Source: Flagellimonas nanhaiensis
GTDB taxonomy: Bacteria > Bacteroidota > Bacteroidia > Flavobacteriales > Flavobacteriaceae
Direction: 5' to 3'
Length of the DNA stretch: 64,000 nucleotides
Assembly: GCF_003382275.1 (NCBI RefSeq)
Contig: NZ_QTJX01000002.1
Location: 868,001-932,000, forward strand
Position numbers and translations under genes: made by a program
Shown here: in pieces, positions 14,392 to 54,931 of the stretch
Numbering within the stretch: position 1 is the stretch's first letter
Layout: every line of letters begins with the position of its first letter
The notes under the pieces: generated by a model
Database searches by the model: none
Seen by the model: only the letters and a program-made list of their open reading frames with translations
Told to the model about the DNA's origin: nothing

Positions 14392-14433
14392 GCTTTTTAG
14401 GTAAGGGGCATACTAAACATGTCCATTTAAACG

Positions 14434-14467: not shown

Positions 14468-14539
14468 GGGAGATTTTTGCATGGTCCACTACGGTAAATA
14501 TCAATCCTCATATGCAATCCGTCAAACCATAGATGGGGC

Positions 14540-14564
14540 AGGTCAACTATAACATAAAAGACCT
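14540..14564 (+). promoter_or_regulatory. Duplicated inverted repeat in leader of lipoprotein copy 2
   Basis: AGGTC and GACCT around the same ACTATAACATAAA spacer as the element at 13335-13359, with one substitution that shortens the arms by one base pair each. About 20 bp of upstream sequence (CAATCCGTCAA and following) is also shared. Confidence 0.45.
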
Positions 14565-14613
14565 AGTTGGCCTCCCTAGATTTGGCTTCATAACCTTATT
14601 AAAATAAAAAATT

Positions 14614-15654
14614 ATGAAACTATTTAGATTATTTAATGTGGCCATATGTTGTATGGCTTTAACAATGGTGTCCTGTTCAGGAGAGGATGGTTTGGATGGT
14701 AAGAATGGCGACTCTGGAGCACCAGGTACCCCAGGTACCAATGGTGATGACGGTCTTGCGTGTTGGGACCTGAACGGCAACGGAGTTGGGGATGTCCCAG
14801 AGGATGTAAATGATGACGGTAACTTTGACGCGTTGGACTGCCAAGGAACGGAGGGACTTGACGGTGCAGACAAACCCAATATGGATTTTTATTTCCAAGA
14901 TGGGTTTAAAGGCTACATGGGTACTGTCGATGCAGGCATTATACCTCCTGATTTGGGGACAAATGATGAAGAAATGGGACTTTTATACATAAATAATGGT
15001 CAAATATCAGAGCGAAGAGCTGTTTTACGTTTTGATGGTATTGGCGAAGCCATTGCAGAAGCTCTGGTTGAGGAGGGTGAGGATTGTTCCAACTCTTTTT
15101 ATATGAGCAAGGCTACCTTATATATTTATATTGCAACGTATACCAACGTATATTACGACAATCTATCCATTAAGGTTGGTTTTTATGGCGATCAAGATCC
15201 TTTTTTTGCTGAAGATGAGGCAACCTGGACGGCGGCCAATGTAAATGATGATTGGGGAGATATTGGAGGAGAAAGCGAGCAATGGGCCGGGCCTTTGCAA
15301 TCTGATGATTACCCATCTTTACTGCCTAGAGGCTCAGGTGTAACCTATGGCTGGTTCCCCATTCTTTTACCTAGAAGCGTGGTGGAAGACTGGATTTGCA
15401 ATCCAGAAACCAATAAGGGGATGCGCTTAAGAATAGAACCTGGTTCGGATGAGCTTGGACAAGGCACAATCGATATTGTGACCAGCGACAATCTTTTGGA
15501 GGACTTTAGACCCCTGTTGGTCATTGAGACTGAGGATATAGAACCTGTATCTGCTAATAAAGGAGCAGTAGGTACTTCCAAACCAACTGATTGGGAAAGT
15601 ATGACCTATGAAGAAAAAATGGCGCCGTTGTACAGATTCCTGTCCTTAAAGTAA
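14614..15654 (+). CDS. Collagen-like repeat lipoprotein, copy 2, with Ca-binding-like insert
   Basis: A 346-aa paralogue of the previous gene. The lipoprotein signal ends at VSC (about Cys22). The stalk is shorter (GEDGLDGKNGDSG, APGTPGTNGDDG) and is interrupted by a Cys-bounded segment, residues about 49-75, with two Asp/Asn loops (DLNGNGVGD and DVNDDGNFD) that resemble EF-hand/dockerin calcium loops. The head domain matches copy 1 throughout: DFYFQDGFKGYMGT, LPRSVVEDWICNPETNKGMRL and C-terminal MTYEEKMAPLYRFLS. Leader and terminator are duplicated too, so a whole transcription unit was copied. Function unknown. Confidence 0.85.
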   Translation: MKLFRLFNVAICCMALTMVSCSGEDGLDGKNGDSGAPGTPGTNGDDGLACWDLNGNGVGDVPEDVNDDGNFDALDCQGTEGLDGADKPNMDFYFQDGFKGYMGTVDAGIIPPDLGTNDEEMGLLYINNGQISERRAVLRFDGIGEAIAEALVEEGEDCSNSFYMSKATLYIYIATYTNVYYDNLSIKVGFYGDQDPFFAEDEATWTAANVNDDWGDIGGESEQWAGPLQSDDYPSLLPRGSGVTYGWFPILLPRSVVEDWICNPETNKGMRLRIEPGSDELGQGTIDIVTSDNLLEDFRPLLVIETEDIEPVSANKGAVGTSKPTDWESMTYEEKMAPLYRFLSLK

Positions 15655-39201: not shown

Positions 39202-39855
39202 TTAGAGCGACCAGGCTTTACCTCCTGTAAGCTCGTTTACGTCCCCACAAGCGACGTACTCGCCTGGTATGGGGAGATAGGCCAAAACCTCTTCTCCAAT
39301 GTACTTAGAAGACTTGTAGGCCCAAGTAGAAATATCGCGTACATTTTGAGCAAATGTGAAACAAGCGACTTCTTCATCCAACTCGGCATCTCCACCTTCC
39401 ATTTTGACTTTCATGTACTCTTCAATGGCCTTTTGCTGAGCTTCTTCCTCCTCATCTGTTCTTTTGCTCAGATATTTGGTAAGGGCAGCTTCAAAATCTT
39501 CGCCCTCGATATCCATTAAAGATTCTTTTCCGGAACCTGCCAAGACCTTGCCCATAAATTTATCCATGACCATGGTCATAAAGCCTTGCTGTTCTTCTGG
39601 CAAGACACTTTTGGCAAACTCATCAATAAAAACATGAACGTTGAGCTCAGTGGCCGAAGGAGTATCTGTTTTGGGCAAGATAACATCCACCATTTGTGCC
39701 AAGGCATACCCTTTGTCCTGTTCAAAATGGCTGGGAACCCAATTTGCATAGGCAGGCTTTCCCTTACAACTTTGCAAAACTCCGAGTAGCGTTGGGGTGG
39801 CAACGGCATAACCGAATACCATACCCATATTCTTAAGTGCTGATCGTCTTTCCAT
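39202..39855 (-). CDS. Gluconate 2-dehydrogenase subunit 3-like protein
   Basis: A 217-aa small subunit of a membrane or periplasmic GMC dehydrogenase. The N-terminus ERRSALKNMGMVFGYAVATP is a Tat-like leader ending in a lipobox-like LQSC (Cys29). The body has WVPSHFEQDKGYALAQMVDVILPKTDTPSA, typical of the subunit 3 family (PF13618). Its start codon shares one base with the stop of the GMC gene (TAATG), giving translational coupling. In related enzymes the small subunit supplies the export signal for a signal-less GMC partner. No cytochrome c subunit is in the window. Confidence 0.92.
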   Translation of the reverse strand: MERRSALKNMGMVFGYAVATPTLLGVLQSCKGKPAYANWVPSHFEQDKGYALAQMVDVILPKTDTPSATELNVHVFIDEFAKSVLPEEQQGFMTMVMDKFMGKVLAGSGKESLMDIEGEDFEAALTKYLSKRTDEEEEAQQKAIEEYMKVKMEGGDAELDEEVACFTFAQNVRDISTWAYKSSKYIGEEVLAYLPIPGEYVACGDVNELTGGKAWSL

Positions 39856-41573
39856 TAGATATTTCCTTTTTTAAGTTCTTGAGCGGCATGGTTGGCGGCC
39901 CTTGCCGTAAAAGCCATATAGGTCAAAGATGGATTTACACAACTTGCAGAGGTCATAAATGCTCCATCTGTAACATATACATTTTTGCAAGTGTGTACTT
40001 GGTTGTATCCATTTACTACCGAAGTCTTGGGGTCACGTCCCATACGGGCAGTTCCCATTTCATGTATTCCAAGACCCAGGGCATACGGGCGATCATAGGG
40101 CTCAATATCCCTGGCGCCAGCTTTTTCAAGCATTTGTACCGCCTGATCTTGCATATCCTTTCTCATGTTCAATTCGTTCTGCTTGATTTCGGCATCAAAA
40201 GTAACCGTAGGCAGTCCCCATTGGTCCTTTTGGTCGTAATCCAGAATCATTTTGTTGTCGTGATAGGGGAGGATTTCACCAAACGCCAACATATTCATGT
40301 TCCATCCTCCAGGACTTAAGACAGCGTCTTTATATCCTTTTCCAAAGGAAGCTTCGGCAACCATTTCTTCATAGTCCCCTCTTCCGGCTCCACCCTGGTA
40401 ACCATATCCTCTGGTAAAGTCCTTCATGTCAGAAGCACCTCCCAAGTTTCGGAACCTTGGAATATAAATGCCATTGGGCTTTCTTCCTTTGTAGTATTTG
40501 TCATCAAACCCGTCCATTTTACCCCTTGCACCAACCAAAAAGTGATGGTCCATGATGTTGTGTCCAAGTTCTCCTGAGTCATTACCCAATCCATTGGGGA
40601 ATCTATCTGACTTGGATTGCATCAATATGGAAGTAGAGGCTACAGCCGAAGCACACAAGAAAATCACCTTGGCTTTGAACTCATAAGTTTCCTTGGTTTC
40701 CCTGTCTATTACTTTAACACCGGTTGCCTTTTGGGTATCTGGGTCGTAAATGATTTCGTGTACAATGGAATCCGGTCTTAGGGTCATGTTTGCGGTTCGC
40801 TCGGCCGCTGGAAGCGTTGAGGACAAACTGCTGAAATAAGCTCCAAAAGGACATCCCCTGATACATCGGTTCCTGAATTGACAACGTACTCGTCCGTTGC
40901 CATCAAATTTTTTGTCACTGTTGATGTGGGCAACCCGTCCGGCTGTAATGACCCTTCCATCAAAACCTTCTGCCACTTTTTCGCGAACATGTTGTTCAAC
41001 ACAGTTAAGTTCCATCATGGGTTCAAATTGCCCATCTGGCAATTGGGGAAGTCCCAAAAGTTCCCCAGAAACACCAATATATGATTCAACCTTGTCGTAC
41101 CAAGGCGCAATATCTTTATAACGAACCGGCCAGTCTACTGCAATACCTTCCTTCTTGTTGGCATCAAAATCCAAATCACTCCATCTATAACTGTGTCTTC
41201 CCCACATAATGGAACGTCCACCAACATGGTAACCGCGCATCCAATCAAATCTTTTTACTTCGTTGTAAGGATGGTCCACATCGTCTACAAACCAGAAATG
41301 ATGAGGTGCTTTTACGGTGTATCCTGTTCTGGCCTGCTTTTCCTGTCTGGCCACCATTTCTTTGGGCAATTCCCCTCCATGGGGAAAATCCCAAGGGTCA
41401 TCTTGGGCGGTCTTATAGTCTTCTCTATGTTTGACCATAGGACCACGTTCCAGGACCAAGGTCTTGAGGCCATTCTCACAGAGTTCCTTAGCGGCCCAAC
41501 CCCCGCTAATACCTGTTCCTACTACAATGGCATCGTAAGATTCTTGCTCCTGATTGTAATAAAATTTGCTCAT
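39855..41573 (-). CDS. GMC-family FAD-dependent sugar dehydrogenase, copy 1
   Basis: A 572-aa flavoprotein. FAD-binding GTGISGGWAAKELCENG and LVLERG are at the N-terminus (no signal peptide). A cysteine pair CIRGCPFGAYFSS follows near residue 240; the C-terminal catalytic part has GLGIHEMGTARMG (His) and SCVNPSLTYMAF (Asn), the His/Asn pair of the superfamily. With the coupled subunit 3 it resembles glucoside 3-dehydrogenases and gluconate or sorbitol dehydrogenases. Position beside TIM-barrel and DUF1080 genes supports oxidation of glycosides at C3, an inference. Confidence 0.93.
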   Translation of the reverse strand: MSKFYYNQEQESYDAIVVGTGISGGWAAKELCENGLKTLVLERGPMVKHREDYKTAQDDPWDFPHGGELPKEMVARQEKQARTGYTVKAPHHFWFVDDVDHPYNEVKRFDWMRGYHVGGRSIMWGRHSYRWSDLDFDANKKEGIAVDWPVRYKDIAPWYDKVESYIGVSGELLGLPQLPDGQFEPMMELNCVEQHVREKVAEGFDGRVITAGRVAHINSDKKFDGNGRVRCQFRNRCIRGCPFGAYFSSLSSTLPAAERTANMTLRPDSIVHEIIYDPDTQKATGVKVIDRETKETYEFKAKVIFLCASAVASTSILMQSKSDRFPNGLGNDSGELGHNIMDHHFLVGARGKMDGFDDKYYKGRKPNGIYIPRFRNLGGASDMKDFTRGYGYQGGAGRGDYEEMVAEASFGKGYKDAVLSPGGWNMNMLAFGEILPYHDNKMILDYDQKDQWGLPTVTFDAEIKQNELNMRKDMQDQAVQMLEKAGARDIEPYDRPYALGLGIHEMGTARMGRDPKTSVVNGYNQVHTCKNVYVTDGAFMTSASCVNPSLTYMAFTARAANHAAQELKKGNI

Positions 41574-41708
41574 TTATTAGTATTGTTTAGTTGCTAAATG
41601 TATTAATTATTAAATTAATTTTCTACATTTAAACCCTATGTTTATTGAGAATTCGTTACTATAACGTTGTAGTTTTTAGAATCACCATAATTTACCAATC
41701 CACATATC

Positions 41709-42707
41709 ATGAAGAGAAAAAATTTCATTAGAAATGCAGCCCAAGTAGGAATTGCACTTTTATTATTGGGAACTTACGCCTGTAAACAAAATCAAAAAAA
41801 AGAGGGAGAAGCCAGCGATGTTGCCCAAGTTGAACCAGAGGTTGTAGAACCGACACTCAAACTGTCATTGGCACAATGGTCAATACATAAAATGATATGG
41901 GAAGAAGGATTAGATCCGTATCAATTTGCAGCAAAAGCAAAAGGTTGGGGCTTTGAAGGGTTGGAGTACGTAAGTGGCTTATACTATCAAGAACTTGAAA
42001 AGGATAATTTTTCTGAGGCAGCCATGAAATCATTTGTGGATAAAAGTAATGCCGAAGCAGAAAAACACGGCATGAAAAATCTTCTTATTATGATTGATGG
42101 CCAAGGAGCTATCGCTGCTGAAGACGCTGAAGAAAGAAAAGCAGCAGTTGAAAACCACTATAAGTGGGTAGACGCGGCAGCGGCCATGGGATGCCACTCC
42201 ATTAGGGTAAACCTTCAAGGAAGTATGGACCCGGAGACATGGGTAGAGGCTTCTGTGGATGGACTTACCCAATTATCCACCTATGCAAAAGACAAAAATG
42301 TAAACGTCATTGTTGAGAATCATGGAGGTCCCTCATCCAATGCAGAATGGTTGGCCAATGTGATGAAAAAAGTGAACATGGACAATTGCGGTACGCTTCC
42401 AGACTTTGGTAATTTTTGTGTGAAGCGCAAAGATGGCTCTTACTATGGCTCAGAATGTATTGAGGAATACGACAAGTACAAAGGGGTTGAGGAATTGATG
42501 CCATTTGCAAAAGCAGTTAGCGCCAAGTCTTACAATTTTGATGAAGAGGGAAATGAGACCGTAATAGATTTTGGCAAAATGATAAAAATAGTCGATGATG
42601 CCGGATACGAAGGTTTCATTGGGGTTGAATATGAAGGAAGCGAACTAAGTGAAGAGGAGGGCATTCTTGCGACAAAGGACTTGTTGTTGAAGCACATAGG
42701 AGCATAG
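41709..42707 (+). CDS. Sugar phosphate isomerase/epimerase-like TIM-barrel lipoprotein
   Basis: A 332-aa protein with a lipoprotein-type signal (basic KRKNFIRNAAQ, hydrophobic GIALLLLG, then TYAC, Cys25), so it is probably outside the cytoplasm. The rest is a xylose-isomerase-like TIM barrel (PF01261): SLAQWSIHKMI, VIVENHGGPSSN (metal Glu and His), GTLPDFGNF and FIGVEYEG. Relatives act as 3-keto-glycoside or 2-hydroxy-3-keto-glucal hydratases or epimerases beside DUF1080 and GMC genes, rather than on sugar phosphates. It leads a rightward unit of five genes. Confidence 0.9.
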   Translation: MKRKNFIRNAAQVGIALLLLGTYACKQNQKKEGEASDVAQVEPEVVEPTLKLSLAQWSIHKMIWEEGLDPYQFAAKAKGWGFEGLEYVSGLYYQELEKDNFSEAAMKSFVDKSNAEAEKHGMKNLLIMIDGQGAIAAEDAEERKAAVENHYKWVDAAAAMGCHSIRVNLQGSMDPETWVEASVDGLTQLSTYAKDKNVNVIVENHGGPSSNAEWLANVMKKVNMDNCGTLPDFGNFCVKRKDGSYYGSECIEEYDKYKGVEELMPFAKAVSAKSYNFDEEGNETVIDFGKMIKIVDDAGYEGFIGVEYEGSELSEEEGILATKDLLLKHIGA

Positions 42708-42725
42708 GCTCAGAAGAACACGTTT

Positions 42726-43169
42726 ATGAAGGGATTTCTACAGCAACTTTTTGACTATAACTTTTTTTGCAATAAAAAGTTGATAGAGCAGTCTATTGCG
42801 CTTAAGGAAGTCCCGCAGGAATCGCAAAAGTTATTTAGCCATATCCTTAATGCACATCATATTTGGAATCATCGCATTCTTGAAGAAGACTCCAAGTTTG
42901 GGGTTTGGCAGGAACACGATTTGGATACCTGGCAAGACCTGCATTATGATAACCAACGTACTTCTTTCGAAATAATAACAAATACAGAGGATTTTGGAAA
43001 ACGGATTGCCTACGAAAACAGTGAAGGCAGGGCCCACGCCAATGAGCTCAAGGATATCCTGGTTCATATCGTTAACCATTCCACCCATCACCGAGGTCAG
43101 ATTTTGACCAATTTTAGGGAGTCGGGAATTGTGCCGGAACCCTTGGACTACATTTTTTATAAAAGATAA
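42726..43169 (+). CDS. DinB-like four-helix protein
   Basis: A 147-aa DinB/YfiT-type protein. The metal-binding histidines are visible in HILNAHHIWNHRIL and HIVNHSTHHRGQ, as in the family's three-His site. DinB-like enzymes include thiol-dependent transferases; which reaction is used here is unknown. It lies 18 bp after the TIM-barrel gene and 7 bp before a transporter gene, inside the sugar cluster. Confidence 0.88.
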   Translation: MKGFLQQLFDYNFFCNKKLIEQSIALKEVPQESQKLFSHILNAHHIWNHRILEEDSKFGVWQEHDLDTWQDLHYDNQRTSFEIITNTEDFGKRIAYENSEGRAHANELKDILVHIVNHSTHHRGQILTNFRESGIVPEPLDYIFYKR

Positions 43170-43176
43170 TTTTAAT

Positions 43177-44406
43177 ATGACACTTAAGACAAAGTTTCAG
43201 CTTTCTTTCATGATGTTTCTGGAGTTCTTCATCTGGGGAGGCTGGTTTGTTACTTTGGGCACTTTTTTGGGAAACAATTTAAATGCCAATGGAGGTGAGA
43301 TTGCGCAGGCTTTTTCAACCCAATCGTGGGGAGCCATCATAGCTCCTTTTATCATTGGCCTTATTGCAGACCGCTATTTTAATGCCGAACGGATATTGGG
43401 AATTCTTCATTTACTTGGAGCATTTTTGATGTACCAAATGTATAATGCAGATGGATTTTCTGTGTTTTACCCCTATGTGCTGGGTTATATGATCATTTAT
43501 ATGCCCACTTTGGCCCTGGTGAACTCCATTTCGTTCAACCAGATGTCCGATCCTGCCAAAGAGTTTTCCCCTATTCGGGTTTTTGGAACTATAGGTTGGA
43601 TAGTTGCCGGTCTTGTCATCAGCTATGCATTTTTATGGGATTCTCCTGAGGGAATCCAATCGGGCATGCTAAAGAACACCTTTTTAATGGTGGCTATTGC
43701 TTCAGCTTTACTCGGGATATTTAGTTTCACTTTGCCCAAAACTCCTCCAAGGGTAAAAAAAGATGAAAAAGTAAGTGTTTCGAGGCTCTTGGGTTTGGAT
43801 GCTTTAAAGCTGTTGAATGACAGGAATTTCTTGATATTTTTCTTTTCATCAGTCCTGATTTGTATTCCCTTGGCGTTTTACTATCAGAATGCCAATCCAT
43901 TCCTGTCCGAGATTGGAATGCAGAATCCAACTGGAAAAATGACCATTGGTCAGGCCTCTGAAGTTGTTTTTATGCTATTGCTACCGTACTTCTTTAAGAA
44001 GTATGGCTTCAAAAAAACAATAATGGCGGGCATGTTGGCATGGACATTACGCTATTTGTTGTTTGCCTATGGCAATGCCGGTGAGATGGCATTTATGTTG
44101 CTGACGGGAATTGCACTGCACGGCATATGCTATGACTTTTTCTTCGTATCCGGCCAAATATATACCGACTCAAAAGCTGGTGAAAAATATAAGAGCGCAG
44201 CGCAGGGACTCATTACCTTGGCCACTTATGGAGTAGGGATGTTGATCGGATTCTGGATTGCAGGTAAAATCACGGACATGTACCTAATTTCAGAAAATGT
44301 ACACAACTGGGAGAAAATCTGGATTATACCATCGCTTTTTGCTTTGGTAGTACTCTTTTTGTTCATGATCCTATTTAAAAAGGAAGAGGTTTCCTATAAA
44401 TCGTAA
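43177..44406 (+). CDS. Nucleoside:H+ symporter-type MFS transporter
   Basis: A 409-aa MFS protein with about 12 membrane helices. Motifs MMFLEFFIWGGWFVTLGTFL, FIIGLIADRYF and VFGTIGWIVAGL are hallmarks of the NupG/nucleoside H+ symporter group, of which many Bacteroidota members sit in sugar clusters and may take other substrates. Start ATG 43177 is chosen because the longer frame from 43129 overlaps the DinB gene. It is followed by a second MFS gene after 24 bp. Substrate inferred to be a sugar or nucleoside. Confidence 0.9.
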   Translation: MTLKTKFQLSFMMFLEFFIWGGWFVTLGTFLGNNLNANGGEIAQAFSTQSWGAIIAPFIIGLIADRYFNAERILGILHLLGAFLMYQMYNADGFSVFYPYVLGYMIIYMPTLALVNSISFNQMSDPAKEFSPIRVFGTIGWIVAGLVISYAFLWDSPEGIQSGMLKNTFLMVAIASALLGIFSFTLPKTPPRVKKDEKVSVSRLLGLDALKLLNDRNFLIFFFSSVLICIPLAFYYQNANPFLSEIGMQNPTGKMTIGQASEVVFMLLLPYFFKKYGFKKTIMAGMLAWTLRYLLFAYGNAGEMAFMLLTGIALHGICYDFFFVSGQIYTDSKAGEKYKSAAQGLITLATYGVGMLIGFWIAGKITDMYLISENVHNWEKIWIIPSLFALVVLFLFMILFKKEEVSYKS

Positions 44407-44430
44407 CTAAACCAAAAACTAATATCAACC

Positions 44431-45606
44431 ATGGAAAACGTTAACAAGAATCGATTATTTGTAGCATCATGTATAGCCTTGCTGGTCACGGCTATGACTT
44501 TTGCCATACGGGCACGACTGGAAACGGTCTTTGGTCCTGAAGGTATAGGACTGACCCTGGAACAGATAGGATGGGCCTTTACACCTGCGTTTTTTGGATT
44601 TACCCTGGCCATGATCTTTGGTGGAATCTTAGTGGACACCTTAGGGATTAAAAAAATTACATGGTTGGCCTTTATTACCCATGCCATTGGGATAACATGG
44701 ACTTTGTTGGCAAGAGACCAGACCTCACTTTTTTTGGCAACCCTTTTTGTGGGTATAGGAAATGGAATGGTGGAAGCCGCGCTCAACCCGATGATTGCTT
44801 CAATGTATTCGGAGAATAAAACCAAAATGCTGAACAGGTTCCACATATGGTTCCCAGGGGGAATTGTTATTGGATCTATAGTGGGTTGGTTGATTATGGA
44901 TGTCCTTGGCCTTAGCTGGCAGATTATGGTAGGAGTACTTTATATTCCATTGGTAATATATGGTCTTATGTTTTGGGGGCAACTTTTTCCTGTTACCGAA
45001 AGGGTGAAACTTGGGGTGAGCAATAAGAAAATGTTCGCCAGTGTTGCAAAGCCGTTGTTCATTTTTATGGTCATTTGCATGTTTCTGACCGCTGCCACCG
45101 AATTGGGCACCAACCAGCGAATAGAGTCCTTATTAAAATCTACCGTTGCTGTTCCGTTATTGGTATTGGCTTTTATAAATGGCATTATGGCGGCCGGACG
45201 AGCCTTTGCGGGTCAGGTGGTCCACAAGTTAAAGCCTGAAGGGATGTTACTTTTCTCAGCGGTCTTTGCTTTTCTAGGTCTGTGGTTGCTTACCATAACC
45301 AGTGGTCCAATGACATTTTTTGCAGCGGCCGTTTTTGCAGTAGGAATCACGTTCTTTTGGCCTACAATGCTTTCCTTTGTGGCTGAATATATACCTGAGA
45401 GTGGAGCTTTGGGACTGTCCATAATGGGAGGGGCCGGAATGTTCTCGGTTTCCTTGATTTTACCGATTATGGGAAATATTATTGACAACGCAAGTGCTAA
45501 TGATGCACTTAAAATCATGTCGGCCTTACCGGCAATTCTTATTGTTCTGTTCATAGCATTGAACGTATATATGAGAAAAAGAAAAACTAACACAAAAGCA
45601 GCTTAA
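44431..45606 (+). CDS. MFS transporter
   Basis: A 391-aa major facilitator with about 12 helices (FVASCIALLVTAMTFAIRA at the start, GGILVDTLGIKK in loop 2-3, MVEAALNPMIASMYSE). It resembles sugar transporters of the FucP-like group but no substrate residue set is readable. In the same rightward unit as a TIM-barrel protein, a nucleoside-type symporter and the Gfo/Idh oxidoreductase (14 bp downstream), so import of the cluster's substrate or product is likely. Confidence 0.88.
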   Translation: MENVNKNRLFVASCIALLVTAMTFAIRARLETVFGPEGIGLTLEQIGWAFTPAFFGFTLAMIFGGILVDTLGIKKITWLAFITHAIGITWTLLARDQTSLFLATLFVGIGNGMVEAALNPMIASMYSENKTKMLNRFHIWFPGGIVIGSIVGWLIMDVLGLSWQIMVGVLYIPLVIYGLMFWGQLFPVTERVKLGVSNKKMFASVAKPLFIFMVICMFLTAATELGTNQRIESLLKSTVAVPLLVLAFINGIMAAGRAFAGQVVHKLKPEGMLLFSAVFAFLGLWLLTITSGPMTFFAAAVFAVGITFFWPTMLSFVAEYIPESGALGLSIMGGAGMFSVSLILPIMGNIIDNASANDALKIMSALPAILIVLFIALNVYMRKRKTNTKAA

Positions 45607-45619
45607 AAAAGAAAAACAA

Positions 45620-46756
45620 ATGCCCAAAAAAATTAGACTTGGAATCCTTGGAGGAGGAGGGGACTCCCTTATTGGTGTGCTACATAGAGTAGCATCTTTC
45701 ATCAATGACAATTATGAAATTGTTGGTGCGGTCTTCAATCCAAATTTTGAGGAAAACGTAAACTTTGCAAAAGAAATAGACGTTCCTACAAACCGTATCT
45801 ATAAAGATTTTGATACGTTGGTCGAGGAGGAGATGAAGCTTCCTCCGGAGGAGCGTATTCAGGTCTGCTCCATTTTGACTCCAAACTTTCTTCATTTTCC
45901 CATGGCTAAAAAGTTATTGGAAAATGGATTTCACGTTATCTGTGAAAAACCCATGACCACTACCTATGAAGAAGCCAAAATTCTTCAAGATACATTGACA
46001 AAGGCCGGAACTGTATTTGCTGTTACCCATACCTATACTGGGTATCCTATGGTTCGTCAAATGCGGGAAATGATCAAGGAAGGTGTATTGGGAAAAATCC
46101 ATAAGGTGGATGCCCGATACTATCAAGGATGGATAAATGAGATTATTCATGACAAGGAAAAACGCTCTACGGTATGGAGATTAGATCCCAAAAAAGCAGG
46201 AATCAGTTCCTGTATGGGAGATATTGGGGTACACGCTTTCAATATGATTGAATTTACTACAGGACTACAGGTAAAATCGTTGCTTTGCGATTTCAACTAT
46301 CTCTATGATGATAACCAAATGGATGTGGATGGAACCGTTCTAATTCGGATGGACGAACATGTTAAAGGAATTATTAGGGCAAGTCAGGTGGCCACCGGTG
46401 AAGAAAATGGTTTGGCCATTGCCATTTATGGTGAAAAGGGAGCCTTTAGGTGGGAACAGGAGAAGCCCAATTTTCTATATAGACTGAGTGACACTGAGCC
46501 AGTTCAAATTTATAAGCCTGGGCATGCGTATAATTCCAAGCTTTCCTTGGATGGTACAAAACTACCCCCAGGTCACCCAGAAGGAATATTTGATGCTATG
46601 GCAAACATCTATTTAGGAGTTGCCAGAGCAATCCGTGGCGAAGAGTACAATGATGGTGAGTTTCCAACAATGTTGGACGGGGTACGGGGATTGAATTTCA
46701 TTGAAAATACAGTCGCTTCCCACAAACAAGGAAATGTTTGGGTAGAGATGGATTAG
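45620..46756 (+). CDS. Cytoplasmic Gfo/Idh/MocA oxidoreductase
   Basis: A 378-aa NAD(P)-dependent oxidoreductase without a signal peptide. Motifs: GILGGGGDSLIGVLH (nucleotide binding), CEKPMTTTY (catalytic Lys), and SCMGDIGVHAFNMIE. Unlike the Tat-type relatives at 33-1460 and 23410-24834 it is cytoplasmic, which fits the two transporters in front of it: the imported keto-sugar could be reduced inside. It is the last gene of the unit, before a strong terminator. Confidence 0.92.
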   Translation: MPKKIRLGILGGGGDSLIGVLHRVASFINDNYEIVGAVFNPNFEENVNFAKEIDVPTNRIYKDFDTLVEEEMKLPPEERIQVCSILTPNFLHFPMAKKLLENGFHVICEKPMTTTYEEAKILQDTLTKAGTVFAVTHTYTGYPMVRQMREMIKEGVLGKIHKVDARYYQGWINEIIHDKEKRSTVWRLDPKKAGISSCMGDIGVHAFNMIEFTTGLQVKSLLCDFNYLYDDNQMDVDGTVLIRMDEHVKGIIRASQVATGEENGLAIAIYGEKGAFRWEQEKPNFLYRLSDTEPVQIYKPGHAYNSKLSLDGTKLPPGHPEGIFDAMANIYLGVARAIRGEEYNDGEFPTMLDGVRGLNFIENTVASHKQGNVWVEMD

Positions 46757-46788
46757 ACACTATTGTATATTTTAATTGATATTAGCAG

Positions 46789-46816
46789 ATGGCCGCTTTA
46801 AGCGGCCATTATTTTT
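46789..46816 (+). terminator. Intrinsic terminator
   Basis: ATGGCCGCT (46789-46797)/AGCGGCCAT (46801-46809), perfect 9-bp stem, loop of three, then TATTTTT. It closes the unit from 41709 and touches the stop codon of the convergent ASCH gene. Confidence 0.88.
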
Positions 46817-47273
46817 GAAAAAGTTTTTCAAACTCCTCAAAAACTACGATCATACTTTCTCTCGGAGTTTTTCCAAATTCCTCTAATTCGCGGTTATAGT
46901 AATCCCAATGGGTTTTTTTCCAATGTTCCAGGCTTTTATCACCTTCGCCTTCCAAACGGGCATGTTCCTCTCGGATGGCAAAATAAGGTACCAATCGCAC
47001 TGCTGTAGTGCGGATAACACATTTTGCCTTACCGCTCCAATCGGTAACCACGGCAAAATCACCTATTTTCGGAAGGTCTTCATGTCTCAATTGCAATCCC
47101 AAAAGAGAATGTGAAGTAGCTCTTTTAACGTCTTTACAAACTAAGTCTAAACAAGTATTTGCATCCTTTTCATTATCACAAAAATGAATGACTTTTGGGG
47201 CGTCCTCAGAAGCAAATTCCAAATGTTTGTCTAAAAAGTCCCCCCACAGATTTCGGGCAGAAGCGTTTTCCAT
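46809..47273 (-). CDS. ASCH-domain protein
   Basis: A 154-aa ASCH/YqfB-like RNA-binding-fold protein. Visible motifs are KDVKRATSHSLLGLQLRHEDLPKIGDFAVVTDWSGKAKCVI, where the usual GxKxxTxR signature appears in degenerate form, followed by VRLVPYFAIREEHARLEGEGD and WKKTHWDYY near the C-terminus. Family members bind or process nucleic acids or modified nucleosides. It shares the leftward unit with a GMC gene (9 bp upstream), with no obvious biochemical link. Confidence 0.88.
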   Translation of the reverse strand: MENASARNLWGDFLDKHLEFASEDAPKVIHFCDNEKDANTCLDLVCKDVKRATSHSLLGLQLRHEDLPKIGDFAVVTDWSGKAKCVIRTTAVRLVPYFAIREEHARLEGEGDKSLEHWKKTHWDYYNRELEEFGKTPRESMIVVFEEFEKLFQK

Positions 47274-47282
47274 AAGTAGAGT

Positions 47283-48986
47283 TTAAGAAAATTTATGTTG
47301 TTTAAATTGTTGGGCTGCATGGTTGGCCGCTCTCGCGGTGAATGCCATATAGGTCAATGAAGGATTAACACAACTGGCAGAGGTCATAAAAGCTCCATCG
47401 GTAACATACACATTGGGAACATCATGAACCTGATTGTTTCTATTGACCACCGAAGTTTTGGAACTATGCCCCATTCTGGCTCCTCCCATTTCGTGAATAC
47501 CGAGACCGGGACCTGTATCATTGTCATATTCTTGAACATCTCTAAAACCAGCTGCTTCTAGCATTGCTTTGGCCTCTTTTTTAATAGATTCCCTCATGTT
47601 CAGTTCATTTTCTTTGAATTCTACATCAAAGTCCAGTTGAGGGAGTCCCCATTTATCCTTTTTATCATTGCTCAAGGTTACGCGATTGTCATGATAGGGT
47701 AATATTTCGCCAAAGCCGGACATTCCAATTTCCCAGCCACCTGGTTTGGCAAGCACTTCTTTCAACGCTTCGCCATAACCCACTTCGGCTACCATTTCTG
47801 ACCAATTACCTCTACTAGCTCCACCTTGGTATCCAAAGCCACGTATAAAGCTTTCTCTCTCGGTGTTTGCACCAAGATTCACAAAACGCGGAATATAGAA
47901 TCCATTAGGTCTTCTCCCTTTATAATATTTATCCAAATAGCCATCAACTTTGGCTGAAGCACCAACTTGGTAGTGATGATCCATAATATTTCTACCTACC
48001 TGATCATGGTTGTTTCCCATGCCATTGGGGAAGGACTTGGATTTCGACTGCAATAATATTCCGACCGAGGCCATGGCCGAGGCACACAAGAACACTATTT
48101 TACCCTTGAACTCATGTTTTTTATGGGTGATAGCATCAATTACTCTAACGCCTGTGGCTTTTTTCAAGTTTTCATCATAGATGACTTCATGTACAATGGA
48201 GTTGGGGCGCAAGGTCATGTTTCCGGTACGCTCGGCAGCTGGAAGCGTGGACGAATTACTGCTAAAATACCCGCCAAAGGGGCATCCGCGCCAACATCTA
48301 TTTCGGTATTGACAAGTACCCCTGCCTTCAAATCTTGTGGTTTTTTCCGTGATATGTGCAGCTCTTCCTATGGTGAGCAATCTACCATCATCAAAGTTAT
48401 TCCCCAGTGACTCTTGAAATTCCTTTTCAACACAATTGAGTTCCATCGGAGGCTGAAACTTTCCATCTGGCAGCTGTTCAAGCCCCAAATTTTGACCACT
48501 TACTCCAATAAAGGTTTCCACTTTGTCATACCAAGGGGAGATGTCCTTATAGCGTACCGGCCAATCCACTCCATGACCATCTTTCTTGTTGGCTTCAAAG
48601 TCAATATCACTCCAACGATAACTTTGTTTTCCCCAGGTAATGGAACGCCCGCCAACATGGTATCCCCTGATCCAATCAAAGCGTTTGGTTTCTTGATATG
48701 GATGCTCTAGGTCATTTACAAAAAAGTGCTTAACATCGTCTTTGGGAGCCCAACCTAATCGACCCTGTTTTGGATATTTTTCCTTGTCCTCCCTGGACAG
48801 TTCTCCTTTGTAGGGCATGTCCCAAGGGTCCCAGTTCATGGTCTTATAATCCACAATGTGTTCCACCATGGGGCCACGCTCCAGAACAAGAGTTTTGAGC
48901 CCGTTTTCACAAAGCTCTTTGGCTGCCCATCCACCACTTATTCCAGTACCTACAACAATGGCGTCATAAACAATATTTTCGTTCAC
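47283..48986 (-). CDS. GMC-family FAD-dependent sugar dehydrogenase, copy 2
   Basis: A 567-aa close paralogue of the GMC gene at 39855-41573: same FAD motif GTGISGGWAAKELCENG, Cys pair CWRGCPFGGYFSS, catalytic GLGIHEMGGARMG and SCVNPSLTYMAF. It has no signal peptide and, unlike copy 1, no subunit 3 gene beside it. Either it uses the copy 1 small subunit or works in the cytoplasm. The many small changes in the substrate-side region suggest a different glycoside. Confidence 0.93.
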   Translation of the reverse strand: MNENIVYDAIVVGTGISGGWAAKELCENGLKTLVLERGPMVEHIVDYKTMNWDPWDMPYKGELSREDKEKYPKQGRLGWAPKDDVKHFFVNDLEHPYQETKRFDWIRGYHVGGRSITWGKQSYRWSDIDFEANKKDGHGVDWPVRYKDISPWYDKVETFIGVSGQNLGLEQLPDGKFQPPMELNCVEKEFQESLGNNFDDGRLLTIGRAAHITEKTTRFEGRGTCQYRNRCWRGCPFGGYFSSNSSTLPAAERTGNMTLRPNSIVHEVIYDENLKKATGVRVIDAITHKKHEFKGKIVFLCASAMASVGILLQSKSKSFPNGMGNNHDQVGRNIMDHHYQVGASAKVDGYLDKYYKGRRPNGFYIPRFVNLGANTERESFIRGFGYQGGASRGNWSEMVAEVGYGEALKEVLAKPGGWEIGMSGFGEILPYHDNRVTLSNDKKDKWGLPQLDFDVEFKENELNMRESIKKEAKAMLEAAGFRDVQEYDNDTGPGLGIHEMGGARMGHSSKTSVVNRNNQVHDVPNVYVTDGAFMTSASCVNPSLTYMAFTARAANHAAQQFKQHKFS

Positions 48987-49080
48987 TTTTAAGCTGTTTT
49001 AATTGTCCGTTATACCTATATTTATGTCATTCTACGAGAATCGTGAAAATATCATAGTTTTTTTCTTAAATATAGAAGAT

Positions 49081-49103
49081 AAATCCTAATGTTTTAAGGA
49101 TTT
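49081..49103. promoter_or_regulatory. Inverted repeat before the TIM-barrel/DUF1080 operon
   Basis: AAATCCT (49081-49087)/AGGATTT (49097-49103) with a 9-nt spacer, 25 bp before the ATG of the sugar isomerase-like gene and within the divergent promoter region of the GMC gene. A candidate operator or leader hairpin, weakly supported. Confidence 0.25.
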
Positions 49104-49127
49104 ACGTACTCTAAAAAAACAATTTCG

Positions 49128-50180
49128 ATGAAAACAATAAAGGGACCGGCTGTATTTTTAGCACAATTTGTGGACAGCCAACCTCCGTTCAATTCTTTGG
49201 ATGGATTATGTAAGTGGGCTTCAGATCTGGGATACAAGGGAATACAAATTCCTACATGGGAGAAGTTTCTGATAGATTTGGACAAAGCTGCCGAGAGTCA
49301 AGACTATTGTGATGAGCTCAAGGGAAAAATAAATTCCTATGGGCTGGAAATTACTGAGCTGTCCACCCATTTACAGGGCCAATTGGTAGCCGTGCACCCC
49401 GCCTATGATATCATGTTCGACAACTTTGCTCCTGATTCCCTTAAAGGGAAACCTAAAGAGCGCACCCAATGGGCCATTGAAACTGTAAAGAAGGCCGCAA
49501 CAGCGAGTCGAAGACTGGGCATAAAAGCGCATGCTACATTTTCCGGTGCTTTACTCTGGCATACTTGGCACCCTTGGCCTCAAAGACCAGCAGGATTGGT
49601 TGAAATGGGATTTGAAGAACTGGCCAAAAGATGGATGCCAATTTTGAACCATTTTGATGAAGAAGGCGTGGATGTGTGCTATGAAATTCATCCGGGAGAG
49701 GATTTGCATGACGGAGATACCTTTGAACGGTTTCTTGAAGCTACCGGGAACCATAAAAGAGTAAACATTCTGTATGATCCCAGCCATTTTGTGCTTCAGC
49801 AATTGGACTATATCACATATATAGATCACTATCATGAATTCATCAAATCTTTCCATGTGAAGGATTCCGAATTTAATCCAACGGGAAAAAAAGGAGCTTT
49901 TGGAGGATATAATGATTGGGGAGATAGAGCAGGTCGCTATAGATCTTTGGGTGATGGACAAATTGATTTTAAGACCATTTTTTCCAAACTTACCCAATAT
50001 GGATGCGATGTCTGGGCAGTAATGGAGTGGGAGTGCTGCATTAAAAGTCCGGAGCAGGGAGCCCGTGAGGGTGCCAAGTTTATACAAGATCACATCATAG
50101 AGGCAACCACAAAGACCTTTGACGATTTTGCAGGTGCCGAAATAGACAAAGAAAACCTTAAAAAAATACTTGGACTATGA
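49128..50180 (+). CDS. Sugar phosphate isomerase/epimerase-like TIM-barrel protein
   Basis: A 350-aa cytoplasmic xylose-isomerase-like protein without signal peptide. Metal-site motifs are CYEIHPGEDLHDG (Glu, His), ILYDPSHF (Asp, His) and VMEWECC (Glu). These match TIM-barrel enzymes acting on keto-sugars next to DUF1080 and GMC genes, for example hydratases of enone sugar intermediates. The next gene starts inside its stop codon (ATGA), so the DUF1080 partner is translationally coupled, which strongly supports a joint pathway. Confidence 0.92.
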   Translation: MKTIKGPAVFLAQFVDSQPPFNSLDGLCKWASDLGYKGIQIPTWEKFLIDLDKAAESQDYCDELKGKINSYGLEITELSTHLQGQLVAVHPAYDIMFDNFAPDSLKGKPKERTQWAIETVKKAATASRRLGIKAHATFSGALLWHTWHPWPQRPAGLVEMGFEELAKRWMPILNHFDEEGVDVCYEIHPGEDLHDGDTFERFLEATGNHKRVNILYDPSHFVLQQLDYITYIDHYHEFIKSFHVKDSEFNPTGKKGAFGGYNDWGDRAGRYRSLGDGQIDFKTIFSKLTQYGCDVWAVMEWECCIKSPEQGAREGAKFIQDHIIEATTKTFDDFAGAEIDKENLKKILGL

Positions 50181-50932
50181 ATAAAGTAATTGGAATACTT
50201 CTAGTAATATTCATTATGGGCTGTAAGGAAAAAAATAAAAATCAAGAAGTGGATTCCGATCCACTTTCTGGAACTGAAATGGAAACTCCAAAAGCATCCA
50301 ATGAGGAATGGTCTGTTTTGTTTGATGGATCTTCATTTGATAGTTGGCATTTCTACAATGGCGGGGATATCGAAGAACCTTGGAAGTTAGAGGATGGCGC
50401 CATGACCTTTTATCCGCCGGCGGAAAGACAAGAAGGTGTAAGTTATAATATTGTGACGGACAAGGAATACACAAATTTTGTACTTTCCTTGGAATGGAAA
50501 ATCTCAGAAGGGGGCAACAGCGGTATTTTCTGGGGCGTTGCGGAAGACGAAAAATTTGGACAACCCTACTTGACAGGACCAGAAATCCAGGTATTGGATG
50601 ATGAGGCACATCCCGATGCCAAAAATGGTACCACGCATCAGGCTGGAGCATTATATGATATGATTGCTCCTTCGGAGAAAGTTGTAAAAGCAGCGGGAGA
50701 ATGGAATCAGGTTGAATTAATGGTCAACCATGAGACCAATTCAGGCCATGTGATTCTCAATGGTAAAAAGATTGTTGAATTTCCAGTTCATGGTCCGGAT
50801 TGGGATGCTATGGTGGCCAATTCCAAATTTGCGGATTGGGAAGGTTTTGGAGCCTACACCACAGGAAAAATTGGACTACAAGACCATGGCGATATTGTGT
50901 CGTACAGAAATATTAAAATAAAAGAACTTTAA
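50177..50932 (+). CDS. DUF1080 (3-keto-disaccharide hydrolase family) lipoprotein
   Basis: A 251-aa lipoprotein (IGILLVIFIMGC, Cys15) with a full DUF1080 domain: VLFDGSSFDSWHFYNGG, WKISEGGNSGIFWGV, PEIQVLDDEAHPDA and C-terminal GKIGLQDHGDIVSYRNIKIK. Overlaps the previous gene by 4 bp (ATGA). Presumed to split 3-keto-glycosides by elimination or hydrolysis in the envelope; its partner barrel protein would act on the resulting intermediate. The lipoprotein location and the apparently cytoplasmic partner do not match, which is an open point. Confidence 0.92.
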   Translation: MNKVIGILLVIFIMGCKEKNKNQEVDSDPLSGTEMETPKASNEEWSVLFDGSSFDSWHFYNGGDIEEPWKLEDGAMTFYPPAERQEGVSYNIVTDKEYTNFVLSLEWKISEGGNSGIFWGVAEDEKFGQPYLTGPEIQVLDDEAHPDAKNGTTHQAGALYDMIAPSEKVVKAAGEWNQVELMVNHETNSGHVILNGKKIVEFPVHGPDWDAMVANSKFADWEGFGAYTTGKIGLQDHGDIVSYRNIKIKEL

Positions 50933-50936
50933 TCCA

Positions 50937-51689
50937 TTGAAAAAAAAGAACATTGTTTTAGCACTATGCGCCTTTGTTGGGGCCATAACATTTGGCCAGG
51001 AAAAGGAACCTACAGTGCCAGAAGCAACGGAGATCTATGAGCCTGTTCCTCCAAAAGTGATTCCAGGAAAGAACGGGTCGGCTCCAAGCGATGCCATTGT
51101 CCTTTTTGATGGAAGCAATCTAGACCAATGGATCAGCGCAGTGGACAGCACTGTAGCCAAATGGCACCTCAACAGGGATGGTAGTATGACCGTTAAGGAT
51201 AAAACAGGGGATATCCAGACCAAACAGAATTTTGGGAGTGTGCAGCTCCACATTGAGTGGAGGTCACCCGCTGAAGTAAATGGGGAAGGGCAAAGCAGGG
51301 CAAACAGCGGTGTTTTTCTGTCAGGCCTGTACGAAATACAGGTATTGGACAACAATGATAATTCCACTTATGTGAATGGTCAGGTGGGGTCTATTTACAA
51401 ACAGCATGTACCACTGGCCATGGCCTCGGTGCCTTCAGGTGAATGGAATTCTTACGATATCATCTATCATGCTCCAGAGTTTGAAAAAGGCCAAAAAGTA
51501 AAGTCAGGTACCCTTACAGTTATCCAGAATGGAGTGTTGATTCAGGATAATGTTGAAATCAAGGGAACTACACCGTACATTGGATGGCCCAAGAACCCGC
51601 CACATGGGAAAGGACCCCTTAGGCTTCAAGACCATAGGGACAATAGCAGGGTGAGCTATAGAAACATCTGGCTACGGGAACTCGATTAA
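50937..51689 (+). CDS. Secreted DUF1080-family protein
   Basis: A 250-aa DUF1080 protein with a cleavable signal peptide (KKKNIVLALCAFVGAITFGQ) and no lipobox. Start is TTG at 50937, since the signal peptide begins there and no ATG is available. Motifs: IVLFDGSNLDQWIS, RANSGVFLSGLYEIQVLDN, and GPLRLQDHRDNSRVSYRNIWLREL. It differs from its neighbour in the substrate-side loops, so the tandem pair may cover different linkages. Last gene of the three-gene unit starting at 49128. Confidence 0.9.
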   Translation: MKKKNIVLALCAFVGAITFGQEKEPTVPEATEIYEPVPPKVIPGKNGSAPSDAIVLFDGSNLDQWISAVDSTVAKWHLNRDGSMTVKDKTGDIQTKQNFGSVQLHIEWRSPAEVNGEGQSRANSGVFLSGLYEIQVLDNNDNSTYVNGQVGSIYKQHVPLAMASVPSGEWNSYDIIYHAPEFEKGQKVKSGTLTVIQNGVLIQDNVEIKGTTPYIGWPKNPPHGKGPLRLQDHRDNSRVSYRNIWLRELD

Positions 51690-53821: not shown

Positions 53822-54931
53822 TTAATCTTGTTGGGCGGTTACAACCCCAACCATACTGTCCGCTGTTCCATAGTACAAATACCAAGTTCCGTTGAACAAC
53901 ACCAAACCTTCCAAGAAAGTGGTTCCGTCTTTGTACTGCCCAGATTTTTCAAATGGCAGTTCCGGTTTTATGAAAGGGTTCTCGGTACGGTCCAATAATT
54001 TCCAGGGCTCCTTGGAATCATAAAGAGCTTGTCCGCCAGTATAAATACGATTTCCCAGCTCTTTTACTCCAATGTTTTTAGAATTTCCCGCATTGTAAAG
54101 GACTACAATACCATCTTCGGTAAGCAGTGGTGGTGGTCCGGCCTCTACCAACCAAGAATCAAAATAACCCGGTCTTGGGCTTAATACCGGAGCTAAACTC
54201 CCTTCATAGGTTTCCACGGGTTCCCAATCTATTAGATTGTCAGAGCTGGCCAACCAAATGTGGGGCACGCCATAGTACATCCAATATTTTCCATTGATTT
54301 TGGCAGCTACCAACTTTCCATTCTTGAGTTCGGTTACGATGGCACCTGACTTTGTCTCTCGATTTAGGTATTGCCCATTTTTGTGCTTTTGAAAAACAGG
54401 GCCATGCTTTTCCCAATGAACAAGATCTTTGGAAGTTGCCACCGCCAATCTTGGGACCTCTCTGTTCCATTGGGTATAGGTTAGGACGTAAAGTCCTTCA
54501 GAAGTTTCAACAATCCTGGGGTCTTCGGTACCTCCAGGCCATTCATTGCCTTTTTGGTTGTCTGGACCCGGGTAAAAGACTGGGGTAGTTCTTTTGGAGT
54601 ATGAAGCGCCATCTTTGGAAACAGCCAATCCAATTCTTGACCGATGTCCGCCAATTTCTTTGTCACCTAACTTTTCTTCTGCCCGATAAAGAACATGGAT
54701 AGTGCCATCCTTTACTATGGCAGCTGGATTAAAGGTAGCCATGGACTCCCAATGTGCAGTCTCACCTGTAATCGGGTCTTTAAATGATGATTTTGAATCC
54801 TTTTGAAGAATGGGTTGGGCATTCGATGGACGTTCAAAAGGCCCCATCATCCAGGATTTCTCTTTTTCTTGGGAATAGATAGTGGCGACTGAAATCAGCC
54901 CCACATAGAAAAGTAGGTATAAACGTGTCAT
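53822..54931 (-). CDS. Secreted GH130-like glycosidase/phosphorylase
   Basis: A 369-aa protein with a signal peptide (LYLLFYVGLISVATIYSQ). The five-bladed propeller motifs include FNPAAIVKDGTIHVLYRA, GGTEDPRIVE (the family's conserved acid region) and VVLYNAGNS. This matches GH130, which contains mannoside phosphorylases and hydrolases; secreted members are often hydrolases. The substrate (beta-mannoside or other) is inferred. Its start shares a base with the upstream gene's stop (TAATG), so it is translationally coupled to the DUF6503 gene. Confidence 0.82.
   Translation of the reverse strand: MTRLYLLFYVGLISVATIYSQEKEKSWMMGPFERPSNAQPILQKDSKSSFKDPITGETAHWESMATFNPAAIVKDGTIHVLYRAEEKLGDKEIGGHRSRIGLAVSKDGASYSKRTTPVFYPGPDNQKGNEWPGGTEDPRIVETSEGLYVLTYTQWNREVPRLAVATSKDLVHWEKHGPVFQKHKNGQYLNRETKSGAIVTELKNGKLVAAKINGKYWMYYGVPHIWLASSDNLIDWEPVETYEGSLAPVLSPRPGYFDSWLVEAGPPPLLTEDGIVVLYNAGNSKNIGVKELGNRIYTGGQALYDSKEPWKLLDRTENPFIKPELPFEKSGQYKDGTTFLEGLVLFNGTWYLYYGTADSMVGVVTAQQD

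Follow-up and report, generated by a model that had tools for sequence, protein, structure and literature searches.

A predicted 3-keto-glycoside catabolic cluster divided by the inner membrane and conserved among Flavobacteriaceae

We analyzed a stretch of 64,000 nucleotides from Flagellimonas nanhaiensis (contig NZ_QTJX01000002.1; hereafter, the window), in which the genes at positions 39202-51689 are read here, with a probability of roughly 0.83, as a 3-keto-glycoside catabolic cluster divided by the inner membrane, with oxidation and cleavage outside and hydration and reduction inside. The genes' identities, the similarity of one protein to a hydratase with an assigned name, conserved residues, the compartments predicted for the proteins and co-occurrence across genomes are the observations from which we infer the enzymatic activities, the C3 position of attack, the substrate and an intermediate that crosses the membrane. 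Most likely, the cluster serves the known route of oxidation, elimination, hydration and reduction. A preliminary description of the window had proposed the first three of these steps for glycosides, and this route is well supported by the hydratase match (PDB entry 8ro4), the co-occurrence and the gene order; the reduction step, for which the cluster encodes a candidate Gfo/Idh/MocA oxidoreductase (Gfo), had been left out of it.

Gene content and proposed pathway

The ten proteins named in the preliminary description are encoded by complete open reading frames, each with a significant Pfam match, and Pfam agreed throughout with the families given to them (pairs of GMC dehydrogenases, barrels, DUF1080 proteins and MFS transporters, plus a single subunit 3 and a single Gfo/Idh protein). 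The coupled overlaps TAATG at 39855 and ATGA at 50177, also reported there, are present in the sequence. Missing from its gene list were a DinB and an ASCH gene that lie inside the cluster. The features are, in order along the window:

39202-39855, minus strand: S3, gluconate 2-dehydrogenase subunit 3-like protein with a twin-arginine (Tat) signal (PF13618, 3.5e-19)
39855-41573, minus strand: GMC1, FAD-dependent dehydrogenase (Pfam GMC domains)
41709-42707, plus strand: TIM1, exported lipoprotein-like protein with a xylose-isomerase-like barrel (PF01261)
42726-43169, plus strand: DinB-family protein (PF05163)
43171-44406, plus strand: NupG-type MFS symporter (PF03825, 2.7e-117)
44431-45606, plus strand: MFS2, second MFS transporter (PF07690)
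45620-46756, plus strand: Gfo, Gfo/Idh/MocA oxidoreductase (Pfam; best PDB match 3v5n, 5e-86)
46788-46810, no strand assigned: terminator-like hairpin of 10 pairs, 6 of them GC, at the Gfo/ASCH boundary (consensus scan only)
46809-47273, minus strand: ASCH-domain protein (PF04266)
47283-48986, minus strand: GMC2, GMC1 paralogue (65% identity) with no subunit 3 of its own adjoining (Pfam; alignment)
49128-50180, plus strand: HYD, predicted 2-hydroxy-3-keto-glucal hydratase with a xylose-isomerase-like barrel (Pfam; PDB 8ro4 match)
50177-50932, plus strand: DUFa, exported DUF1080 protein (PF06439, 1.1e-48)
50937-51689, plus strand: DUFb, exported DUF1080 protein, not of the DUFa subfamily (PF06439, 3.9e-38)

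In the pathway that we propose, GMC1, exported via S3, would oxidize C3 of the sugar of a glycoside outside the inner membrane and pass its electrons to a carrier encoded elsewhere. Exported DUFa, DUFb or both would eliminate the aglycone or second sugar to yield a 2-hydroxy-3-keto-glycal, and the glycal or its hydrated form would be imported by the NupG-type symporter or by MFS2. In the cytoplasm, HYD would add water to give the 3-keto sugar, which Gfo would reduce to the unmodified hexose at the expense of NAD(P)H. GMC2 may broaden oxidation, and TIM1 would carry out some further exported step. The predicted export signals separate oxidation and cleavage from hydration and reduction in this way in nearly every locus compared, so that a keto-sugar intermediate probably crosses the inner membrane.

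HYD and the conservation of the cluster within the family

HYD aligned end to end with PDB entry 8ro4, deposited under the molecule name 2-hydroxy-3-keto-glucal hydratase, with 228 of 350 residues identical (65%; 546 bits). Eight acidic and histidine residues (E186, H188, D217, H220, H243, D246, E300 and E302) were present in all 71 HYD sequences, the window's included, and are also kept in the 8ro4 alignment. Export signals, scored here and below with a simple hydrophobicity and motif rule rather than a trained predictor, were found in none of the 70 relatives (0/70). On these sequence features, HYD is predicted to be a cytoplasmic 2-hydroxy-3-keto-glucal hydratase. The pertinent passages on Agrobacterium tumefaciens describe AtHYD as a putative hydratase acting after elimination, on preliminary evidence (PMC10628242). 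Entry 8ro4, for which the match listing displayed no organism, is presumably AtHYD.

To place the cluster in its family, we used a sample of 149 genomes, one per genus and with the window's own included. HYD (E ≤ 1e-40), GMC1-like (E ≤ 1e-150, a threshold that admits GMC2 and other paralogues) and TIM1 (E ≤ 1e-50) were detected in 71, 77 and 72 of them, respectively. The co-occurrence in related genomes, which the preliminary description had suggested as a check, was strong: HYD and a GMC1-like gene were found together in 69 genomes, HYD alone in 2, the GMC gene alone in 8 and neither in 70 (Fisher p 2e-30, a value that overstates independence, as the genomes are related). Similarly, 68 genomes carried both HYD and TIM1, 3 HYD alone, 4 TIM1 alone and 74 neither.

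To compare the surroundings of HYD, we extracted at most 20 kb of sequence around it from each of the other HYD genomes, which gave 70 loci, several of them cut off at contig ends (one genome, G004, carries two HYD copies, of which one was used). Gfo was found in 69 of these loci, an MFS transporter in 67, TIM1 in 63, a GMC gene in 61, DUFa or DUFb in 59 and S3 in 56. TIM1-MFS-Gfo-HYD formed a co-directional series in 62/70 loci, with a DUF1080 gene after them in 53, and the S3-GMC pair preceded HYD on the opposite strand in 56; the complete order, with divergent S3-GMC, TIM1-MFS-Gfo-HYD and DUF1080, was seen in 49. Exceptions were locus L037, with HYD alone, and L083, with a different order. 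Because this gene order recurs across 70 loci of other genera, the cluster is no chance assembly.

The nearest named relatives of HYD come from Flagellimonas, Muricauda, Maribacter and other Flavobacteriaceae, and its identity across the 70 loci is 68-94%, with at least 76% in 68 of them. Among the 69 loci with at least two cluster members, HYD was the most conserved member, or tied for it, in 65; MFS2 ranked higher in the remaining four.

These counts put a non-hydrolytic route that has been investigated in only a handful of bacteria into roughly one half of the genera sampled (71/149 by HYD), as a cluster largely fixed in the family together with its compartment plan. Glycoside use in these bacteria would accordingly not be readable from glycoside hydrolase counts alone. 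The compartment plan also turns the identity of the keto sugar that passes through the inner membrane, and its possible sharing between species, into a testable question.

Proposed oxidation: GMC dehydrogenases, S3 and electron carriers

The N-terminus of S3 was Tat-like in all 61 relatives, with R3 and R4 invariant in 17/17 aligned sequences, and export signals were found in 0/57 GMC1 and 0/16 GMC2 relatives. In hitch-hiker Tat export, a signal-less partner is carried out by a signal-bearing subunit. The combination of a Tat-like signal in S3 with signal-less GMC1 and GMC2 is consistent with such an export, in which S3 would be the probable escort of GMC1. The predicted structure of S3 was of moderate quality (mean predicted local distance difference test, pLDDT, 76.5); it gave no Foldseek match at E 0.001 or better, and no PDB sequence relative was found at E 0.01.

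The closest solved relatives of GMC1 are large subunits of fructose dehydrogenase. His504 of GMC1 aligns with the site altered in 8k6j (H1147A), and the counterpart of Asn547 in 8xcn is an Ala; among 58 GMC1 sequences, the window's included, His504 was present in all and Asn547 in 57 (one gap). The catalytic His and Asn were also kept in 13/13 sequences of a mixed alignment including GMC2 and two proteobacterial proteins, which we preferred to strict motif regular expressions for GMC2 (12 and 10 of 17; the L067 sequence is truncated by the locus end). By sequence, GMC1 is proposed to be a glycoside 3-dehydrogenase, with C3 as the presumed position, the nearest solved relative being an enzyme that oxidizes fructose. 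The combination of a GMC protein with a Tat subunit 3, a LacABC-type feature, is present in the cluster.

GMC2, 65% identical to GMC1, represents the only clear duplication in the cluster and lies between Gfo and HYD in 9/70 loci. In three loci (L066, L068 and L070), a GMC2-like gene with its own S3 stands beside the S3-GMC1 pair. A third GMC gene, elsewhere in the genome (L088:7713-10147), encodes a protein 35% identical to GMC1 and has its own subunit 3. Among the GMC1-like matches listed, only those of G136 and G142 contained an internal stop, and neither genome has HYD, as if the oxidase decayed once the hydratase is lost; a sequencing error or an incomplete assembly (G136 is 84% complete) is also possible.

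With regard to electron carriers, genes named by eye as a lipoprotein azurin (14/70 loci) or a lipoprotein cytochrome c (6/70) were located near S3 in other genera. In the four loci worked out (L035, L038, L041 and L059), the carrier gene is convergent to S3 and hence outside its operon. The azurins (L035, L041 and L059) and cytochromes c (L038, L042 and L050) appeared by eye to have a similar N-terminal linker after the lipid cysteine, as if, judging by sequence, two unrelated electron carriers were set on the same anchor in these relatives. The genome of the window encodes two unlinked homologues of the relatives' lipoprotein cytochrome c (C8:501171 and C1:20914); no azurin homologue was detected in it at E 1e-5, with the positive control G077 being matched.

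Proposed cleavage by DUF1080 proteins, and the exported barrel TIM1

DUFa and DUFb share 29% identity and fall into separate subfamilies. DUFa matched 14 distinct PDB sequences, including 4jqt, 8v31, 8rr2 and 8tda, and the sole PDB relative found for DUFb was 4qhz (2.3e-74). Three residues, E136, D141 and the histidine of a QDH motif (DUFa numbering), are kept in the alignment of both proteins; among the 49 DUFa sequences, counting that of the window, all had E136 and H237 and 48 had D141, and the LQDH motif was present in 34/36 DUFb sequences, the window's included. An export signal was predicted for DUFa in 49/49 cases and for DUFb in 18/35 at the predicted start and 33/35 from any start. 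We propose from these sequence features that DUFa is a 3-keto-glycoside lyase and DUFb a second one. Their occurrence varied in part independently (49/70 loci for DUFa and 35/70 for DUFb), and they may well differ in specificity. The 3-keto-O-glycoside lyase of Bacteroides thetaiotaomicron that also hydrates is an enzyme that we take to be a DUF1080 protein; its residue H275 could not be mapped onto the two DUF1080 proteins of the cluster from the alignments. The passages on this lyase describe elimination from 3-keto-O-glycosides and a loss of hydration in the H275N variant (PMC13273386), and BT2157, a DUF1080 protein of the same species, is termed 3-ketotrehalose hydrolase where it is mentioned in PMC9007349.

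Other DUF1080 genes were noticed in this genome, which has nine DUF1080 matches in total. At 33-2262 of the window (minus strand), another DUF1080 gene (1480-2262) accompanies a Gfo/Idh gene (33-1667), an arrangement that is possibly another 3-keto pathway. In locus L084 (G000:C8:71000-90000), a separate sugar cluster of the same genome, a pair of DUF1080 matches side by side lies close to genes for two Gfo/Idh proteins, a glucuronate isomerase, a GHMP kinase and a sodium:solute symporter.

TIM1 showed a hydrophobic N-terminus in 50/61 relatives. Its model (mean pLDDT 88.7) was closest to 4ovx (Z 40.7; root-mean-square deviation, rmsd, 1.2 Å; 267 aligned residues), followed by the isomerase Art22 (Z 28.8, rmsd 2.2, 247 aligned) and C-glycoside deglycosidases of the DgpC type (Z 26.6, rmsd 3.2, 259 aligned), with sugar epimerases and isomerases ranking just behind the latter. 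Residues E203, H205, D232, K273 and E307 were invariant in 62/62 TIM1 sequences, the window's included. In AtOGE and the CGEs, as outlined in PMC10628242, metal ligands come from strands 5, 6, 7 and 8 and are joined by a catalytic His; E203, H205, D232 and E307 of TIM1 match the pattern of strands 5, 6 and 8, by strand order in the model rather than by superposition. Sequence and model together make TIM1 a lyase- or epimerase-like candidate. Near the cluster in 25/70 loci (e.g., L026:2604-3524), we also noticed, by eye, an isomerase-like barrel with a Tat signal that is absent from the cluster of the window.

Proposed reduction and import

Gfo lacked a hydrophobic signal at the predicted start in all 71 sequences, one of which had a hydrophobic stretch from another start. 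Lipobox matches of the signal rule in 5/71 Gfo sequences (with no hydrophobic stretch) and in 17/18 MFS2 sequences were treated as motif artefacts. Gfo scored 35.1 bits against the NCBIfam model for glycoside 3-dehydrogenases of the BT_2158 family, far below its cut-off of 750, which makes it consistent with a reductase role like those of LgdC in B. smithii, as summarized in PMC7676230, and of the Gfo protein of the A. tumefaciens operon, as summarized in PMC10628242. By analogy with these proteins, we propose that Gfo, found in nearly every locus, is a cytoplasmic 3-keto-glucose reductase.

The NupG-type symporter was found in 53/70 loci and MFS2 in 18/70, with either of them in 67/70; MFS2 replaces or joins NupG. 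When aligned globally by force, the two transporters share 23% identity, as do the two barrels. NupG relatives also adjoin the hydratase gene on plasmids of Xanthomonas and Pantoea, and the NupG-type protein is proposed as the importer of the keto intermediate.

Transcription, passenger genes and neighborhood

Several transcripts, at least four, are likely rather than a single operon, because genes lie on both strands, a hairpin parts Gfo from ASCH and there are two divergent start regions (41574-41708 and 48987-49127). Gfo and ASCH converge on the hairpin at 46788-46810; terminator-like sites were not enriched in the region (12 vs. 14.5 in shuffles). DinB and ASCH, found in 20/70 and 19/70 loci, respectively, and restricted to nearer relatives, are probably passenger genes of the close lineage.

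No NCBIfam model scored above its cut-off for the ten cluster proteins searched (DinB and ASCH were outside this search). In agreement with the preliminary description, no SusC/SusD pair was found among the cluster proteins, and no regulator lies within the cluster. As a possible glycoside hydrolase member, a GH130-like gene at 53822-54931 (minus strand), whose product has a hydrophobic N-terminus, was considered and rejected: three housekeeping genes separate it from the cluster, and it occurred in 0/70 of the relatives' loci. An AraC-type gene, named by eye from sequence, was seen near the cluster in 13/70 other loci. Elsewhere in the window, at 13414-15654 (plus strand), two neighboring proteins contain short collagen-like repeats, the second of them below the Pfam cut-off.

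HYD modules beyond the family

In a phylum-level sample, HYD was detected in 57/296 genomes at E ≤ 1e-80, the window's own included, and it was also found in 310 plasmid records, whose ten commonest genera are all Proteobacteria. We inspected 12 of these 310, picked by genus and not at random, within the plasmid stretches and with an incomplete PLSDB gene table. A plasmid of Pseudoalteromonas donghaensis carried the whole set (Gfo, HYD, MFS, DUF1080, GMC, S3 and a barrel), as did one of Xanthomonas sacchari, with HYD, a NupG-type permease, Gfo, a barrel and a cytochrome c, and with DUF1080, S3, GMC and a barrel on the opposite strand. A Croceicoccus plasmid showed Gfo-HYD-S3-GMC, and one of Sphingobium a NupG-type permease, Gfo and HYD followed by a pyrroloquinoline quinone (PQQ)-dependent dehydrogenase and a cytochrome c. 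HYD and Gfo accompanied a sugar ABC importer in Phyllobacterium, Sulfitobacter, Phaeobacter, Azospirillum, Paracoccus, Pseudosulfitobacter and Neorhizobium, the last with a GMC gene and a c-type cytochrome 6-8 kb away, and in Pantoea HYD was found with a NupG-type permease. An MFS or ABC transporter gene lay within 2.5 kb of HYD in 12/12 stretches.

These arrangements lead us to a speculative suggestion, to which we would give limited credence: 2-hydroxy-3-keto-glucal, or its galacto form, might be a transported and shared metabolite. HYD, in most cases together with an importer and Gfo, would then make up a mobile module for uptake into the cytoplasm that serves varied outside oxidases or none nearby. 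If true, the module would combine with GMC-S3, or possibly with a PQQ dehydrogenase, as the outside oxidase, and HYD modules on plasmids of several Rhodobacterales, Rhizobiales, Azospirillum and Pantoea would scavenge keto-glycals released by other bacteria. As a separate observation, HYD genes of Saprospiraceae and Flammeovirgaceae are 71-75% identical; the neighbors in L166 and L163 were checked in part.

Points against the proposed pathway and alternative explanations

Several observations weigh against the membrane-divided 3-keto-glycoside pathway. No cytochrome c or azurin was found among the proteins encoded at 39202-51689, so that the electron acceptor is not in the cluster; with the cytochrome candidates unlinked and no regulator present, the earlier view of a stand-alone pathway is doubtful. 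The strand-7 position of TIM1 is Lys273 where characterized lyases have a metal-binding His, which departs from the metal site of AtOGE and the CGEs, and the window's TIM1 has no replacement His anywhere between residues 205 and 329. In the active-site check suggested in the preliminary description, candidate residues were found to be kept in the GMC proteins, HYD and the DUF1080 proteins, TIM1 being the barrel that deviates. Outside the family, no GMC or DUF1080 gene was found, by annotation or by tblastn at E 1e-4, in six of the seven stretches with an ABC importer (all but Neorhizobium), and no Gfo homologue was found in the Pantoea stretch or near HYD in the Saprospiraceae and Flammeovirgaceae loci L159 and L163-L167, several of which are short on one side. 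Finally, by analogy, a hydrating periplasmic DUF1080 enzyme could finish hydration, with HYD acting on another substrate.

This last point amounts to an alternative in which the DUF1080 enzymes complete hydration in the periplasm, so that 3-keto-glucose would be what the MFS transporters take up, and HYD would serve as a backup or have a different sugar as its substrate. We regard it as the less probable course, although one to be taken seriously, given that the B. thetaiotaomicron lyase hydrates and its H275N variant does not, according to the passages cited (PMC13273386). A redundant HYD, however, would not explain its top conservation (65/69 loci) or its retention together with a GMC1-like gene in 69/71 HYD genomes. 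Another explanation follows the preliminary description, where the doubling of GMC, barrel and DUF1080 genes had suggested two parallel branches, each set with its own substrate class. Two GMC proteins and two DUF1080 subfamilies of partly independent occurrence would fit it; even so, we consider it unlikely, since the barrels are 23% identical and predicted to reside in different compartments, GMC2 has no adjoining subunit 3 and occupies its site in so few loci, and the cluster has a single HYD and a single Gfo. As the DUF1080 and MFS pairs are likewise divergent, only the GMC proteins qualify as true duplicates.

It is more improbable still that the same protein families serve another catabolic purpose, such as cyclitol, amino-sugar or nucleoside breakdown. 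Models for inosose dehydratase, levoglucosan dehydrogenase and nucleoside permease did match below their curated cut-offs, the permease coming nearest (383 vs. 446 bits), but HYD scored 546 bits against the named glycal hydratase and only 59 (cut-off 290) against the inosose dehydratase model. Moreover, a similar gene company has been linked, in the passages concerned of PMC9007349, to growth of Caulobacter on lactose and, in part, raffinose and salicin. We retain the 3-keto-glycoside pathway divided by the inner membrane as the preferred reading.

Comparison with known systems

The same kind of system is already published for Agrobacterium, Caulobacter and Bacteroidota, and the comparisons below follow those passages of the sources that describe each system. 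A search for literature on Flavobacteria with DUF1080 and GMC proteins returned no paper whose title or opening abstract lines concerned this cluster, a result that does not establish that it is unpublished. In B. thetaiotaomicron, the 3-keto pathway of the BT2157-BT2159 type reportedly starts with oxidation by Gfo-type glycoside 3-dehydrogenases. It resembles the cluster of the window in its DUF1080 protein (BT2157; PMC9007349) and differs with regard to Gfo, which in the window is far from the BT_2158 family (35 bits vs. 750).

The levoglucosan pathway LgdA-B1-B2-C of B. smithii, reconstituted with four enzymes, likewise proceeds through oxidation, elimination, hydration and reduction, and its two isomerase-like proteins, as the barrels of the window, are without marked mutual similarity (PMC7676230). 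In contrast to the window, it has an NAD-dependent first enzyme, levoglucosan as the substrate and ABC transporter genes, and the passages considered name no GMC or DUF1080 protein (PMC7676230).

The third component of LacABC is a cytochrome c, and no such component is encoded in the cluster of the window. In other respects, the Caulobacter crescentus lacABC cluster, with its DUF1080 protein, transporter, two epimerases and reductase, is close to it by description: both combine a GMC protein and subunit 3, two DUF1080 proteins, a transporter, two epimerase-like or barrel proteins and a sugar reductase (PMC9007349). Pedobacter, Indibacter and Algoriphagus are named in the same source as Bacteroidota relatives of the lacABC-DUF1080 cluster.

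The A. tumefaciens operon GlycDH-OGE-HYD-Gfo shares with the window FAD-GMC oxidation, elimination, hydration by a barrel protein and reduction by Gfo (PMC10628242). Cleavage is carried out there by the barrel AtOGE, whose β-7 metal His is lacking in TIM1, whereas in the window it presumably falls to DUF1080 proteins; two MFS transporters and an extra GMC protein further distinguish the window from that operon as described (PMC10628242). With no claim to a first description, the window adds to these systems a well-conserved, family-wide example and a compartment plan.

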